NCBI GenBank assembly: GCA_017309115.1
Contig: JAFLEF010000016.1
Span: 1 to 64,000, forward strand
Source: Verrucomicrobiota bacterium
GTDB taxonomy: Bacteria; Verrucomicrobiota; Verrucomicrobiia; Limisphaerales; UBA9464
DNA length: 64,000 nucleotides
Direction of reading: 5' to 3'
Position numbers and translations under genes: made by a program. Positions 11,698 through 57,376 of the stretch are shown one piece after another (position 1 is the stretch's first letter; each line of letters begins with the position of its first letter). The notes beneath the pieces are model-generated. The model was not told the DNA's origin. It searched no databases and worked only from the letters and a program-made list of their open reading frames with translations.

Positions 11698-14600
11698 TCA
11701 AGGGGCCGTAATCACTTCGGTCGCCGTGCTCACTTGATTGAGCGAGGGATCGTAAGTGTAGTTGGCCAAAACCATCTTGGTGATCGAGAAGGTCAGCGTT
11801 CCCGCCGTGGTGACCTTTTTCGACGCAATCTCCACCTCACCGTTTGCATTCGTGGTCAGGGTCTTGTTGTTGCTGGCGATTCCAGTCCAGCGACCGGTCA
11901 CCGCGATCCCCGAGATCGGCGATCCCGAAGGATTGGTGACGCGAACCCGAGCGTAAGCCGTCGTTCCGGTCGGGGTCACCACCGTCCGAGTGGTGATCGT
12001 TTCGACCCGCAGGATGCGTTGTTCCACTGCCTGTACGACAATCGTGGTCGAAGCCACACTCACGCCGCCCAGATTGTCCAGGACCGCGAGATTTACCTGA
12101 TAGGTTCCCGCCGCCACGAAGCTGTGTTGCGCGGTTTCTCCAACCGCCGTGTTGCCATCACCGAAGTCCCAGGCGTAGGCCACAATTTCGCCGTCAGCAT
12201 CTGTCGATCCGGTCGCATCGAAGACCACAGCGAGCGGCATGGTTCCAGAGCTGGTGCTCACCGACAGTTGCGCCGTGGGCGGCACGTTGGCCGGGGCCAC
12301 TTCGATGGAGAGCGATTCCGAATGGGTCAGACCGCTGTCGTCGGTGATGGTCAGGACCGCGGTGTACGTTCCCGCCTGGGTGTAGGCATGATTCACAATC
12401 GCGCCCTGAGCAGTTTGGCCATCGCCGAAGTTCCAGTCGTAGGCCACCACCGAACCATCGGAGTCGAAGGACAGGCTACCGTCGAAACTGACCGACAGCG
12501 GCGCCGTACCCACCACCGCACTCGGGTTGATCACCGCCACCGGAGCCACTGGCTGAACGGGATTGGCCACCGTACCCGTCACCGAGTAGTTGCCGAGCGA
12601 CCCATAGGTGGAGTAGCCGGTCGTGACCGATCCGCGGCCCTCGCCCTGAACCGCCAAGAAGTAGGTTCCGGCCGGAAGGTTCAGATTGAATACCGCCGAC
12701 AGTGTCGTGGGGGAACTGGCCGACGCGACCAAGGCGCCGGTGGAGTCGTAGATCGTGGCCCGCACATCCAGGTTGGGGCCGCGGGACTGCGGAGCCACCG
12801 TCAACGTCGCCAAGCCCTCGCCCGCTACGAAGGCAAACATGTCGACATCCGTGTTCCGTTCGATGATGCCGCTGGCCGCCAGCTGCATTCCCAGCGGCAG
12901 GTAACTGGCCACGGCGGTTTGGTCGCCATGGTCATCCGCCCGGTACGTCACCCCGTAGTTCTGCATGACCGCGAGATCATCCTGGGTGTTGCTGGCGCTG
13001 GCGTATTCGCCCCGGCTCCATTGGGTCACATTCTTTGAGTAACCGACGCCCATGATCGGCGCCCACCCCGTCTCACCCGAGCCATTGCCGGCGAAGTAAC
13101 TCGCGCCATTCAACACTCCGTCATGACTCAATCCAAGAGCATGACCAGCTTCATGCGAGGCCGCTTCCGCAATGTTCTTGTCATTGGTGGCTCCCAGCTT
13201 GTCCGAGAACACGAGGGAAGGTTTCCAGCTGTCGCCCACGTCGTTGAACGTCCCCAGGTACGAGACACCACCGTAGTTGCCGAAGTACGAACTCAGGGGG
13301 CTGATAAGAACCCGCACCCCATAGTACTCATCCGACGGATTACTCCGGGTCAGCTGAGCTTCGCTGAACAGTTCCGTGGTCACGTCGATGTCGAGCGGAG
13401 CGTAATCCTCCGCCACCCGCTGCCAGATCTGGATGATCCGGGTCCGCTCGGCGTCACTGAACGTGGTCGGTGAGCCTTCCGTGTTGTAGGCCGGAGCCAC
13501 AATGTTCGTGCCCCCGTTGTAGAACTCCGTCCAGGCGTTGCCCGACATCACATGACCATCGAAATCGAGGAAGATGGTTCGCTTGGCTCCTGGTCGGCTG
13601 TGCAGTTTGAACGCATCCACCGGCTGCGGAGTCTCCAGGGCGTTCATGGCCATACGCACCGGAGGCGACGGAATCTGTTCCAGCGGATTGCCGCCCAAAC
13701 CGTTCTCCTGCGCCCGTACCGGCGGGGACGGAATCTGCTCCGACGGGTTGTTACCCGGAAAGTTCGCCACCGGAGGCGACGGAATCTGCGTGGAAGGAGA
13801 ACCGTCAAAGCCACTCAGCATATTCCCGGTCGGCGGCGACGGAATCTGACCCGTGGGCGGGTCGATCAAGCCATTCTGGGAGAATCGAACCGGAGGTGAC
13901 GGGATCTGGCTTGAAGGGTTTCCGCCCAGCAGCACCGGAGGCGAAGGAATCTGACCCGAAGGCGTCCCACCCAGCAGCACCGGAGGCGAAGGAATCTGGC
14001 CCGAAGGGGTTCCGCCCAGCAGCACCGGAGGCGAAGGAATCTGACCCGAAGGGGTTCCGCCCAGCAGCACCGGAGGCGAAGGGATCTGACCCGAAGGCGT
14101 CCCACCCAGCAGTACCGGAGGCGAAGGAATCTGGCCCGAAGGCGTCCCACCCAGCAGTACCGGAGGCGAAGGAATCTGACCCGAAGGCGTCCCACCCAGC
14201 AGCACCGGAGGCGAAGGGATCTGCGTCGAGGGGTCGCCTTCCAGCAGCACCGGAGGTGAAGGGATCTGCGTCGAGGGGTCGCCCTCCAACAGGACCGGAG
14301 GTGAAGGGATCTGCGTCGAGGGGTCGCCTTCCAGCAGCACCGGAGGTGAAGGGATTTGCGTCGAGGGGTCACCTTCCAGCAGCACCGGAGGTGAAGGGAT
14401 CTGCGTCGAGGGGTCGCCTTCCAACAGGACCGGAGGTGAAGGGATCTGAGTGGAAGAGTCTCCCAGGTCCACATCCGTCAACGGATCAGTATAAAGAAGC
14501 CGTCCCTGGGGATCCACCGCCAGACTCGAATCCGCCCGCAATCGCAGGTGCAGTTCCGTGGCCGTCAGACCGTACGCCCGGGCCACATCAGGTAACCGCA

Positions 14601-53885: not shown

Positions 53886-55223
53886 ATGTCACTGCATACT
53901 CGCCGTTCGTTTTTGCGCTCCACCGCCCTGGGAGGCGCGTTGAGCTGCACCGTTCCGTCCTTCCTGGCCGCGACGTTCGATCAACTTCACGCCGATTCCG
54001 CCGACCGGGCCATCGCCACGCCCACCGGCAAAGACGCCCCGATCCTGGTGGTCCTCCAGATGGCCGGAGGCAATGACGGGCTGAACACGGTCGTGCCCTT
54101 TGCCGATGACCATTACCACCGCGCCCGACCCAAACTCGGCTTGAAGCCGGATCGCGTTCTGAAGGTGACCGATACCGTGGGGCTGCATCCAGCGCTCCAG
54201 GGATTCCGTTCCCTGTACGATGCCGGGCAACTCGCGGTCGTGCAGTCCGTGGGATATCCGAATCCCAATCGGTCGCACTTCCGCAGCACGGACATCTGGA
54301 TGACGGCCACCGACAGCGACCGGGTCAGCAACGTCGGCTGGCTGGGACGGTACTTCGACAACGCCTGTCCAGGAGCGGATCCTACCGTCGGACTAGCCGT
54401 GGGACGTCAGTCCCCACTGGCCTTCGCCGCGCGCAAACCCACCGGCGTGGCCTTGGAGAATCCGGATGCGTATCGCTTCGCCGACCGTGACGAACCTGAG
54501 GAAGGCGAGATGGCGGGCAGCGGAAAGTTCTATCGGCAGATGAACGCCAACTTCGACGACCCTTCACTGGGCGATCCCGCCAACGCCGGCGGGACGGTGA
54601 ACTCGCTGGGAGGCTCGAAGTCCATGTCAGGAGGGTCGCCCCTGGACTTCCTCGAACGCACCGCCCTCGATGCGCAGGTCAGTTCCGATCAGATTCGCGC
54701 CATCGCCAGCCGCACTAAGAATCAAGCTTCCTACCCGTCGTCCAAGCTCGCCAACGATCTCAAGCTCGTCGCCCGACTCATCGCCGGCGGTCTGGGAACC
54801 CGGGTGTACTACGTGAGTCAGGGCGGCTATGACACCCACACCAACCAAGTCACCTCCCATCAGCGGTTGCTGACCGAACTGGGCGATTCGGTGGCGGCCT
54901 TTCTGAAGGACCTGGCAGCGCTCCAGCAGAGCGATCGCGTCCTGCTGTTGACCTTTAGTGAATTTGGCCGGCGCGTGGCGGAGAACGGCAGCGGAGGAAC
55001 CGATCACGGAGCCGCCGCCCCGTTGTTCCTCATGGGATCTCGCTTGAAGCCCGGCTTCCACGGCCCGGCGCCGTCCCTGGCTCCCGACACATTGCTAAAG
55101 GGGGACGTGAAGTTCCAAACCGACTTCCGCAGCGTGTACGCCAGCGTGCTCCAGGGCTGGCTCAAGACAGATCCCAACGCGGTCCTTGGCGGGAAATTCG
55201 ATCCCGTACCGCTGCTCGCCTGA
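53886..55223 (+). CDS. Tat-exported DUF1501 family protein
   Basis: The 445-aa protein carries a twin-arginine signal (TRRSFLRSTALGGALSCT). Family blocks: VLQMAGGNDGLNTVVPFADD, VGYPNPNRSHFRSTDIWMTA, YVSQGGYDTHTNQ, LLLTFSEFGRRVAENGSGGTDHG. This is the alkaline phosphatase/sulfatase-like fold family DUF1501, with candidate metal residues D and H in GGYDTH and GTDHG. The substrate is unknown. It is co-transcribed with the DUF1800 gene. The downstream 600 bases are a repeat island rather than a gene. Confidence 0.92.
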   Translation: MSLHTRRSFLRSTALGGALSCTVPSFLAATFDQLHADSADRAIATPTGKDAPILVVLQMAGGNDGLNTVVPFADDHYHRARPKLGLKPDRVLKVTDTVGLHPALQGFRSLYDAGQLAVVQSVGYPNPNRSHFRSTDIWMTATDSDRVSNVGWLGRYFDNACPGADPTVGLAVGRQSPLAFAARKPTGVALENPDAYRFADRDEPEEGEMAGSGKFYRQMNANFDDPSLGDPANAGGTVNSLGGSKSMSGGSPLDFLERTALDAQVSSDQIRAIASRTKNQASYPSSKLANDLKLVARLIAGGLGTRVYYVSQGGYDTHTNQVTSHQRLLTELGDSVAAFLKDLAALQQSDRVLLLTFSEFGRRVAENGSGGTDHGAAAPLFLMGSRLKPGFHGPAPSLAPDTLLKGDVKFQTDFRSVYASVLQGWLKTDPNAVLGGKFDPVPLLA

Positions 55224-55254: not shown

Positions 55255-55299
55255 TGTGGAGCGCGGTAGACTTTCTAGACTTTCTACCGCTTTCCCATG
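55255..55299 (-). repeat. REP-like palindromic repeat, copy 2
   Basis: Read on the minus strand this is ATGGGAAAGCGGTAG...CTACCGCGCTCCACA, matching copy 1 at 165-209 in both arms but with a different loop. It begins 31 bases after the DUF1501 stop. Conservation of arms and not of loop suggests selection or mobilisation of the hairpin. Confidence 0.72.
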
Positions 55300-55315: not shown

Positions 55316-55345
55316 AGCTGAGAGCTGAGAGCTGAGAGCTGAGAG
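55316..55345 (+). repeat. AGCTGAG heptamer array, left arm
   Basis: Four full AGCTGAG units plus two bases. The exact 30-base reverse complement stands at 55681-55710, so the two arrays form a perfect inverted repeat around 335 bases. Confidence 0.9.
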
Positions 55346-55425: not shown

Positions 55426-55645
55426 AAAGCGGTAGAGGGGCTAGCCCGGATATTTCACACTCTTTCTGCTGCGGCTGGCTGCAAGCCCGTCTGGCGGCGT
55501 TGGCCTCGTATTCCTCGCCGGACAGTATGTCCCCATACAGCCCGGTTCGGAATCGCTTCGGCCGCCTTGCCAGACGGGCTTTCGCGGCGCCTCGCGACGA
55601 AAGCCTGTGAAATATCCGGGCTAGAGGGGCTGCCGCATTCCATGC
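55426..55645 (+). repeat. REP-like palindromic repeat, copy 3, interrupted
   Basis: The left half AAAGCGGTAGAGGGG (55426-55440) and right half CTGCCGCATTCC (55630-55641) rebuild a REP-like unit when the 184-bp element and one AGGGG copy between them are removed. The right arm has one change (CTGCCGC for CTACCGC). Confidence 0.65.
55441..55624. mobile_element. MITE-like element, 184 bp
   Basis: Perfect 19-bp terminal inverted repeats, CTAGCCCGGATATTTCACA at the left and its reverse complement at the right. A second inverted pair lies inside (AGCCCGTCTGGC at 55484, GCCAGACGGGCT at 55569). AGGGG flanks both ends (55436-55440 and 55625-55629) as a probable target-site duplication. No open frame of useful size exists inside, so it would depend on a transposase in trans. 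The family is not known to me. Confidence 0.75.
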
Positions 55646-55680
55646 GCTCCGCGCATCTCTCACCGCTTGTCCCTTCCGAC

Positions 55681-55710
55681 CTCTCAGCTCTCAGCTCTCA
55701 GCTCTCAGCT
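55681..55710 (-). repeat. AGCTGAG heptamer array, right arm
   Basis: Exact reverse complement of the array at 55316-55345. Confidence 0.9.
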
Positions 55711-55822
55711 TTCCCACCCTCGGTGGGGCGAGGTTCCACCGAGCAGTTCGTGTCCCGGCGAATTACGCGCAGGGAGGCCACACACGGACGGCTCCGCGGA
55801 GCGTCGCCTTACCGCTTACCGC

Positions 55823-57376
55823 TTACCCCTTCCCCTGCTCCACCCAGTGACGAGATTGCCGCTTGGGTAAAGTTGCGGGACGAATCGGCGAGGCCGATTC
55901 CGGAAGGGCCGTGACGCGCCACCACTCGGGACGATCGCTCCGGCCGGCCCGCTGATAGTCGCGAGTGAGCGTCAAGCCGACCCGCTCGGGATCCTGCCCC
56001 GCCTGAGTGGTGAGGTACTCCCACAGCAGGTCGAACTGACGCGTCAACGCCACGCCACTCGTCTTCACGCCCCGGCCGTGAAGCCAGTCGCTCCAGCCCA
56101 GGAAGGCCACGAAGGGTGATTCCAATCCCGCGGGGAGCTGCCACAGCAGCGGCAACGATTCGCGGAAGCGGCCGCTGTTGCCGAACAGATCCCAGAAGCC
56201 CGCGAACCGACGCAGCCGGCTCAGGGTGGCAAAGTCGAGGTCTTTGGTTTGCAGAACTTCATACGGTGGCTGCGGGCTGTAGACCATCGACCATTCCCGG
56301 TCGTGACGAATGATCGGAGTCCCGCGCAGACGCTTCAGAATTCCCACCTGAATCTCCTGCGGTCCCAACGCCAGCAGCCGATCAAATCCCCGTCCAAAAC
56401 TCTCCAGGTTCTCGCCGGGCAAACCTGCAATCAAATCGGCGTGGACATGCACGCCGCTTTGCTCGCGCAGCCAGCGGAAGTTTTCCTCCATGCGAACATG
56501 GTTCTGCCGACGGCTGATCAGTTCCTCCACCGCAGGATTCAGTGTCTGCAAGCCCACTTCGAATTGCAGCGCGCCCGGAGGAAACCGGCCGATCAATTCG
56601 CGCAACGGTTCCGGCAATCGATCAGGCACCAGCTCGAAATGGACAAACAGCCCTTCCCGCCAGCGATCCAGAAAGAACTTCAGGATCGCGGTGCTGGTGG
56701 GCAGGTGCAGGTTGAAGGTCCGGTCCACGAACTTGAACTGCCGCACCCCGCGGTCGAGCAGCCCCTGCATCGCCGCCAGAAACCGGTCCAGAGCAAACTG
56801 CCGCACCGGGATGTCGAGGGACGATAGACAAAACTCGCAGGTGAACGGACATCCGCGCGACGCCTCGACGTAAATCACCCGGTGCGCCACATCGCGTTCG
56901 TCGTACAACTCGTAGGGCAACTCCAGTCGGTTCAGATCCGGAAGTCCGGCCGGGATGAGACGCTGCAAGGGCGGCGCGGGAGGATCCTGCAACAGGTGCC
57001 GGCACACCTCCGCAAACTTCAGATCGGCTTCGCCCGTGATGACATGATCGGCGAGCCGGACGATTTCCTGTTCCTCCGGTTCGTAGCTCACTTCTGGCCC
57101 CCCCAGAATGATCCTCATTTCGGGTCGCATCCGGCGCAGTATGGCGACCAGTTCGGTCGTGGGCCGGACGTTCCAGATGTACACGCCCAATCCGAGGATC
57201 CGAGGCGAGCGAGCCAGGATGGCTTCGGCGATTTCCAGCACCGGCTGGTTGATGTCGAATTCCACCAGCGCCGAGCGCGGGCGCAGTTCACCCAGATTCG
57301 CTTGCAGGTATCGCAGACCAAACGCGGCGTGCAGATACCGGGCGTTCAGCGTGGCGAGCAAAATATCGGCGCTCAT
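55823..57376 (-). CDS. B12-binding radical SAM protein (DUF4080-like)
   Basis: The 517-aa protein has an N-terminal cobalamin-binding-like domain (LATLNARYLHAAFGLRYL; ILGLGVYIWNVRPT; ILGGPEVSYEPEE). The radical SAM motif is ASRGCPFTCEFCLSSLD, with a barrel following (VDRTFNLHLPTS, FEVGLQTLNPAVEELI, DLIAGLPGENLESF). A C-terminal DUF4080-like part begins near 380. The substrate is unknown; such proteins are often annotated as B12-dependent oxidoreductases or methyltransferases. It starts 24 bases after the Nudix gene stop and is the last gene of a minus-strand run. Its 3' end abuts the repeat island. Confidence 0.88.
   Translation of the reverse strand: MSADILLATLNARYLHAAFGLRYLQANLGELRPRSALVEFDINQPVLEIAEAILARSPRILGLGVYIWNVRPTTELVAILRRMRPEMRIILGGPEVSYEPEEQEIVRLADHVITGEADLKFAEVCRHLLQDPPAPPLQRLIPAGLPDLNRLELPYELYDERDVAHRVIYVEASRGCPFTCEFCLSSLDIPVRQFALDRFLAAMQGLLDRGVRQFKFVDRTFNLHLPTSTAILKFFLDRWREGLFVHFELVPDRLPEPLRELIGRFPPGALQFEVGLQTLNPAVEELISRRQNHVRMEENFRWLREQSGVHVHADLIAGLPGENLESFGRGFDRLLALGPQEIQVGILKRLRGTPIIRHDREWSMVYSPQPPYEVLQTKDLDFATLSRLRRFAGFWDLFGNSGRFRESLPLLWQLPAGLESPFVAFLGWSDWLHGRGVKTSGVALTRQFDLLWEYLTTQAGQDPERVGLTLTRDYQRAGRSDRPEWWRVTALPESASPIRPATLPKRQSRHWVEQGKG

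Follow-up and report, generated by a model that had tools for sequence, protein, structure and literature searches.

Locus and anatomy of the element

The window analysed here is a 64,000-nt stretch of a Verrucomicrobiota genome (GCA_017309115.1, contig JAFLEF010000016.1, positions 1–64,000). The gap between two converging genes, a DUF1501 gene (53886–55223, plus strand) and a radical-SAM/B12-binding gene (55823–57376, minus strand), contains a 184-nt segment at 55441–55624 that is bounded by perfect 19-nt inverted ends (CTAGCCCGGATATTTCACA). The segment is flanked by GCGGTAG-AGGGG on the left and by AGGGG-CTGCCGC on the right. These flanks are the two halves of a host palindrome, each half including one AGGGG spacer (55429–55440 and 55625–55636, both plus strand), as judged from the window sequence and from empty units of the same palindrome family.

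The outermost four bases of the inverted ends, CTAG, are the duplicated target; the left copy (55441–55444) and the right copy (55621–55624) were assigned from empty sites and from end tetramers. Accordingly, the inserted length is 180 bp, comprising a 176-bp body (55445–55620, plus strand, CCCGGATATTTCACA ... TGTGAAATATCCGGG; delimited by the copies and their ends) and one CTAG; the inverted repeat proper measures approximately 15 nt (CCCGGATATTTCACA), with its left occurrence at 55445–55459 on the plus strand and its right occurrence at 55606–55620 on the minus strand. The earlier note on this DNA had described a 184-bp element with 19-bp repeats; the perfection of the ends stands, while both lengths are shortened. 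Directly inside the duplication the element has CC..GG termini (CTAG/CCCGG...CCGGG/CTAG).

The internal inverted pair reported previously is present and perfect (left arm, 55483–55495, plus strand; right arm, 55569–55581, minus strand), and it extends over 13 nt, not 12. None of 200 shuffles folds as well as the segment, whose z values are −8.9 as DNA and −10.8 as RNA. A count of pairing in 27 copies, drawn from four genomes, showed 93.3% of the paired cells kept (shuffled mean, 92.3%), with changes on both sides in 11 of 74 pairs, compared with 3.8 in the shuffles. Five of these doubly changed pairs are in the outer helix holding the end repeats and six are in the inner helices. Because the sequence in the window supplied the structure and relatedness among copies is ignored in the shuffles, support for an inner hairpin maintained across copies is moderate. 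No Rfam match was found in the window. Tandem runs of the heptamers CTGAGAG and CTCTCAG, in opposite orientation, lie on either side of the element (55320–55345 and 55680–55712), and similar runs occur near two other copies (L012 and L018). The window also contains a tandem array with a 45-bp period at 13660–14518.

The copy family and its host palindromes

The genome of the window (G000; 7.53 Mb in 111 contigs) contains at least 23 full copies at 82–100% identity, whose flanks differ, one copy at 71% and 16 partial copies. This copy number is a lower bound, since 40 of 77 first-look candidates were scored; the remaining rows are the same places on the opposite strand, or split. Matches were found in five of the 59 genomes searched, the window's own included. 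G000, G003 and G004 belong to one genus, in which two of four same-genus genomes carry copies and the other two (G001 and G002) carry none. G038, from another family, has five full copies at 84–86%, and G009 has two short matches only. Full-length relatives at 68–71% were found in two further MAGs, of Spartobacteria and Chthoniobacterales. The element thus recurs in G000, G003, G004 and G038, the genome and its relatives being where the earlier note had proposed to search for it. The segment at 55441–55624, being multicopy, shorter than about 300 bp, bounded by inverted ends and devoid of a transposase gene, is a miniature inverted-repeat element (MITE) and a member of a repeat family rather than a chance arrangement. 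The copies and the empty palindromes described below bear out the earlier description of a MITE-like, non-autonomous element that sits inside a REP-like palindrome and whose insertion history can be read. At three places (L018, G000:C2:17357; L055, G004:C361; and L067 2743–2746), the TAG of the CTAG would be the stop codon of a neighbouring open frame, as judged by eye. An approximately 50-bp palindrome in G000 (L068 2942–2989, contig C44) is made up of little more than two such inverted ends.

G000 has 22 exact palindrome units with a central CTAG and no element, while a control pattern gives one. Their layout is GCGGYAG-X-CTAG-X-CTRCCGC, and the spacer X is identical on both sides in 19 of the 22; genome-wide, the spacer sequence differs between units and is often identical within one unit. 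Such an empty unit, GCGGTAG-ACTTT-CTAG-ACTTT-CTACCGC, lies at 55263–55290 (plus strand), approximately 140 bp upstream of the element, and displays the layout of an unfilled site. A further REP-like palindrome with a tandem 8–9-mer loop was noticed at 174–201 of the window.

A length pattern admitting 20–38 nt counted 56 units, and the 50 listed measured 28 nt (42 units), 20 nt (three), 26 nt (two), 37 nt (two) and 31 nt (one). The lengths of 20, 28 and 37 nt suggest that a loop of 8–10 nt may be present once, twice or three times. The two 9-mers are identical in only 6 of the 42 28-mers and match at six of nine positions in 22. Eight of the 50 listed units contain CTAG; all three 20-mers lack it. 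In the window, the target would be the central CTAG of a REP-like palindrome in which the loop repeats a 9-mer in tandem (GCGG-TAGAGGGGC-TAGAGGGGC-TGCCGC), and this tetramer forms where the two 9-mers meet. Since CTAG comes about where one loop repeat abuts the next, loop doubling probably made the landing site of the element.

Palindrome arms are present on both sides in 3 of the 23 full copies and on one side, by a loose match, in two more; this count admits one mismatch per arm, and a control with random window positions gave 39 of 20,000. With about 1,880 CTAGs in the genome, a total estimated from the density in the window, the three filled sites among 25 CTAG palindromes compared with 20 among the rest correspond to odds of 12.5 (p 0.003), and counting four filled sites gives odds of 17.6 (p 0.0002) on the same estimated total. 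This enrichment could be partly or wholly due to survival bias in non-coding DNA. As only 3 of 23 copies, and not most of them, lie inside REP palindromes, the pattern points to a CTAG preference that the palindrome satisfies, not to strict REP targeting.

The duplicated target and its alternatives

Read from the sequence, the duplicated target is CTAG, not AGGGG. CTAG is present at both ends in 17 of the 23 full G000 copies. In the paralogous empty units L206 (C90:122378–122403; GCGGCAGAGGGCTAGAGGGCTGCCGC) and L208, one CTAG lies between two spacers, and both units align, without a junction gap, across the junctions of the filled copies L009 and L027. Other paralogs count against so simple a picture: in L207 the tetramer is CTGG and there is a gap, eight bases are missing from L209 at the junction, the paralog of L019 has CCGG at the site with equal length, and at the L054 site, whose eight paralogs all belong to G003, no paralog has an intact YTAR. 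Three same-genus orthologous places were followed among the matches listed. For the G004 copy L062, G001 and G002 both read through a single CTAG, and the adjoining gene start aligns at 73–74% over 312 columns, at one place in each genome; just 6 nt of the left flank align in these empty sites, and a TA-only duplication would look identical there. At the G002 place orthologous to L015, the alignment stops 5 nt short of the junction. Empty sites, which the earlier note had proposed to look for, were thus found, with a single CTAG, among paralogs (L206 and L208) and orthologs (G001 and G002). The ancestor it had proposed, by removal of the element and one AGGGG, is incorrect; removal of the element and one CTAG restores the usual two-repeat palindrome. 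Because empty units have the spacer twice around CTAG, AGGGG was present twice before insertion, and AGGGG-CTAG-AGGGG is the likely ancestral layout.

The tetramers on the two sides are identical in 54 of 80 elements with these ends, being CTAG in 43 and other sequences, all of them direct repeats, in 11 (TTAG in four, CTAA in three, and TTAA, ATAG, CTAT and GTAG in one each). A stricter filter, which also required 13 of 17 end bases to match, left 79 elements and reduced the identical non-CTAG pairs from 11 to 8; elements with duplicate flanks or near contig ends were removed from both counts. These 79 comprise 36 with identical CTAG, 8 with identical non-CTAG tetramers, 19 without TA, which were set aside, and those with differing tetramers, of which 13 differ in the outer base only, one in the inner base only and two in both.

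AGGGG does stand directly outside both CTAGs, as the earlier note had observed, and it was there taken for a 5-bp target duplication, which would call for a transposase that duplicates 5 bp. Of all 23 full G000 copies, the one in the window alone has pentamers that match beyond its end tetramers, and CTAG is the sole extra copy in the aligned empty sites. We take the repeated spacer already present in 19 of 22 empty units as refuting the pentamer duplication, which is consequently very improbable. Still less credible is a compound palindromic repeat of 220 bp that spreads as a whole. In its favour, the C76 copy L009 has the element and palindromic flanks in common with the window; 20 of the 23 full copies without arms on both sides and the 22 CTAG palindromes without the element are taken as refuting it. 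The 220-bp segment is not always one unit, since copies lie outside palindromes and palindromes occur without the element.

The remaining alternative is a MITE of the IS630/Tc1-mariner type that duplicates only TA, with G...C belonging to its own ends and cTAg as its preferred target. In G000, G003 and G004, the base adjacent to the element indeed stays G or C while the outer base varies (TTAG/CTAG and CTAG/CTAA), as this alternative would have it. On elements elsewhere with the same ends, the pairs ATAG/ATAG, CTAT/CTAT, GTAG/GTAG, TTAG/TTAG and CTAA/CTAA were observed, and such non-palindromic identical tetramers, not being expected from a TA-only duplication, disfavour it. Moreover, both full-length elements with assigned frames encode IS1380 and not IS630 transposases (see below), and the two DDE_3 matches in G000 have no such ends at either locus. 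We consider a TA duplication improbable, and a 4-bp duplication of CTAG is preferred.

For the 4-bp duplication, the 13:1 skew between outer and inner changes (p 0.0009; 0.005 when allowing for how the contigs were found) hints at a carried CTAG overhang, because chance decay would be expected to strike inner and outer bases with equal frequency. Taken alone, the four MITE-host genomes give 6:1, which is not significant by itself. It is possible, and we propose it only tentatively, that IS1380-type elements bring their own 4-nt CTAG overhang into a new site, as piggyBac brings TTAA. The carried overhang would pair with the four bases of the target, so that the donor would supply the inner base and the target the outer one, and a non-CTAG target would yield a mismatched junction. 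For piggyBac, hairpinned ends and ligation repair at TTAA are described in the text available from PMC3878927. If the skew is real, it offers a sequence-only test of a piggyBac-like hairpin and overhang route for IS1380; if the overhang reading is true, IS1380 would work mechanistically as a bacterial piggyBac, and genome sequence would suffice to show it.

IS1380-type ends and comparison with known systems

A scan of GTDB genomes for TAGCCCGGATATTTCACA gave at least 112 stretches, which, among the matches listed, fall in Verrucomicrobia, Gamma- and Betaproteobacteria, Hydrogenedentota, Myxococcota, Planctomycetota, Omnitrophota and others. One of them (L153, JANXMD010000612), whose sequence equals the match in G034, a genome of the window's family, is a 1.76-kb element with CTAG on both sides and with both ends identical to the 15 nt of the window. 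Its 486-aa ORF matches the IS1380 model NF033539 at 339.8 bits (cut-off, 180) and PF13701 at 416 bits. Another, from a Cycloclasticus MAG (L162, PADC01000003), is 1.58 kb long, has CTAG on both sides and ends identical over 15 and 13 nt, and contains a 443-aa IS1380 open frame (397.2 bits). The transposase bounded by the same ends that the earlier note had proposed to look for thus exists in these two elements, and none was found in the MITE-bearing genomes.

In particular, the draft assemblies G000, G003, G004 and G038 yielded neither relatives of the L153 transposase at E 0.001 nor an IS1380 gene with these ends. Because the assemblies are drafts, this absence is weak evidence; a partner in the same genome does not define a MITE, but it would be expected if mobility were current. 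Candidate partners were examined and rejected. The sole PF13701 gene of G000 (C45:61001–62254) scores as IS1380 at 215 bits, but its ends differ (GCCGGAACGATGC); an IS1380-family element with these different ends (L070 1360–2890, G000:C45) interrupts a gene that reads in frame as a putative site-specific recombinase. No such ends lie within the 3,468-bp locus of the weak PF13701 match in G038 or at the two DDE_3 (IS630-type) loci of G000. A 1.2-kb segment of G000 (L067 1525–2746, at 206.5–207.7 kb of C1) has inward-facing IS1380-type ends with CTAG on both sides and may be a passenger module or chance; as an autonomous element (C1:206528–207727) it was rejected, with a DTW-domain ORF and no transposase seen among its open frames. 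A phylum-wide pattern search of 387 genomes for paired exact ends, which left out the other same-genus genomes and divergent ends, found them in G000 only. The interior of the MITE was not seen, by eye, in the insertion sequences found, which have only the ends in common with it. The same IS1380-type ends were also observed in a second family of approximately 222 bp in another Verrucomicrobiota MAG (JAKQKQ01 contigs; L115, L124, L148 and others), in a 158-bp element of a Myxococcota MAG (L161 and L167) and as a 1.57-kb pair in Parasulfuritortus.

Taken together, the element is very probably a non-autonomous miniature transposon with IS1380-type ends that was inserted by an IS1380-family transposase at the central CTAG of the palindrome, with duplication of 4 bp. 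We infer that an IS1380 enzyme moves the MITE by cut-and-paste chemistry. An IS1380-family transposase from an insertion sequence not visible in the assembly would bind the 15-nt ends, excise the element and join it to CTAG or, less often, to another NTAN such as TTAG or CTAA, duplicating the four bases.

A literature search of titles and abstract openings, with few subscription papers, found no IS1380-type MITE of Verrucomicrobiota. Two papers that mention both IS1380 and MITEs describe other elements: PMC11578231 links its MITE to IS1182, and PMC3542288 links its MITEs to no insertion sequence. As an element it is ordinary; what it contributes is a connection of a Verrucomicrobiota MITE family with the IS1380 family and with a 4-bp target of the CTAG type. 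It also teaches that landing in a palindrome with a pre-existing direct repeat can lead to a wrong reading of the target duplication.

The host palindrome resembles the GTAG-tagged REP families, which include Opitutus terrae of the Verrucomicrobia and are described in the available text of PMC3733652 as short GTAG/GYAG palindromes in many copies. Compared by description only, the likeness lies in the GTAG/GYAG motif and the many copies, and the difference in the tandem 8–9-mer loop including TAG. REP palindromes are targets of insertion sequences of the families IS3, IS110, IS4, IS256 and IS5 in the parts of PMC1525189 consulted, and IS1380 is named zero times in its main text. IS1397, ISKpn1, IS621, ISPpu9/10 and ISRm22 are described there as inserting inside a repeated extragenic palindrome, as the element did in the window; unlike such REP-targeting insertion sequences, the element has just 3 of 23 copies in these palindromes. 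Like other bacterial MITEs, it is short, multicopy and hairpin-forming, with inverted ends and a target duplication, but the mobilising family would here be IS1380, as end identity indicates, and the interior is not evidently derived from the insertion sequences found. In ends and duplication the element resembles the IS1380 family (NF033539, PF13701), distant kin of eukaryotic piggyBac; IS1380 and piggyBac have 4-bp duplications and CC..GG termini in common, according to the available part of PMC10045372. With the IS1380 insertion sequences the element shares CC...GG termini, the 4-bp duplication and the same ends, but its body is 176 bp without a transposase gene, and its target is centred on CTAG in contrast to the TTAA of piggyBac.
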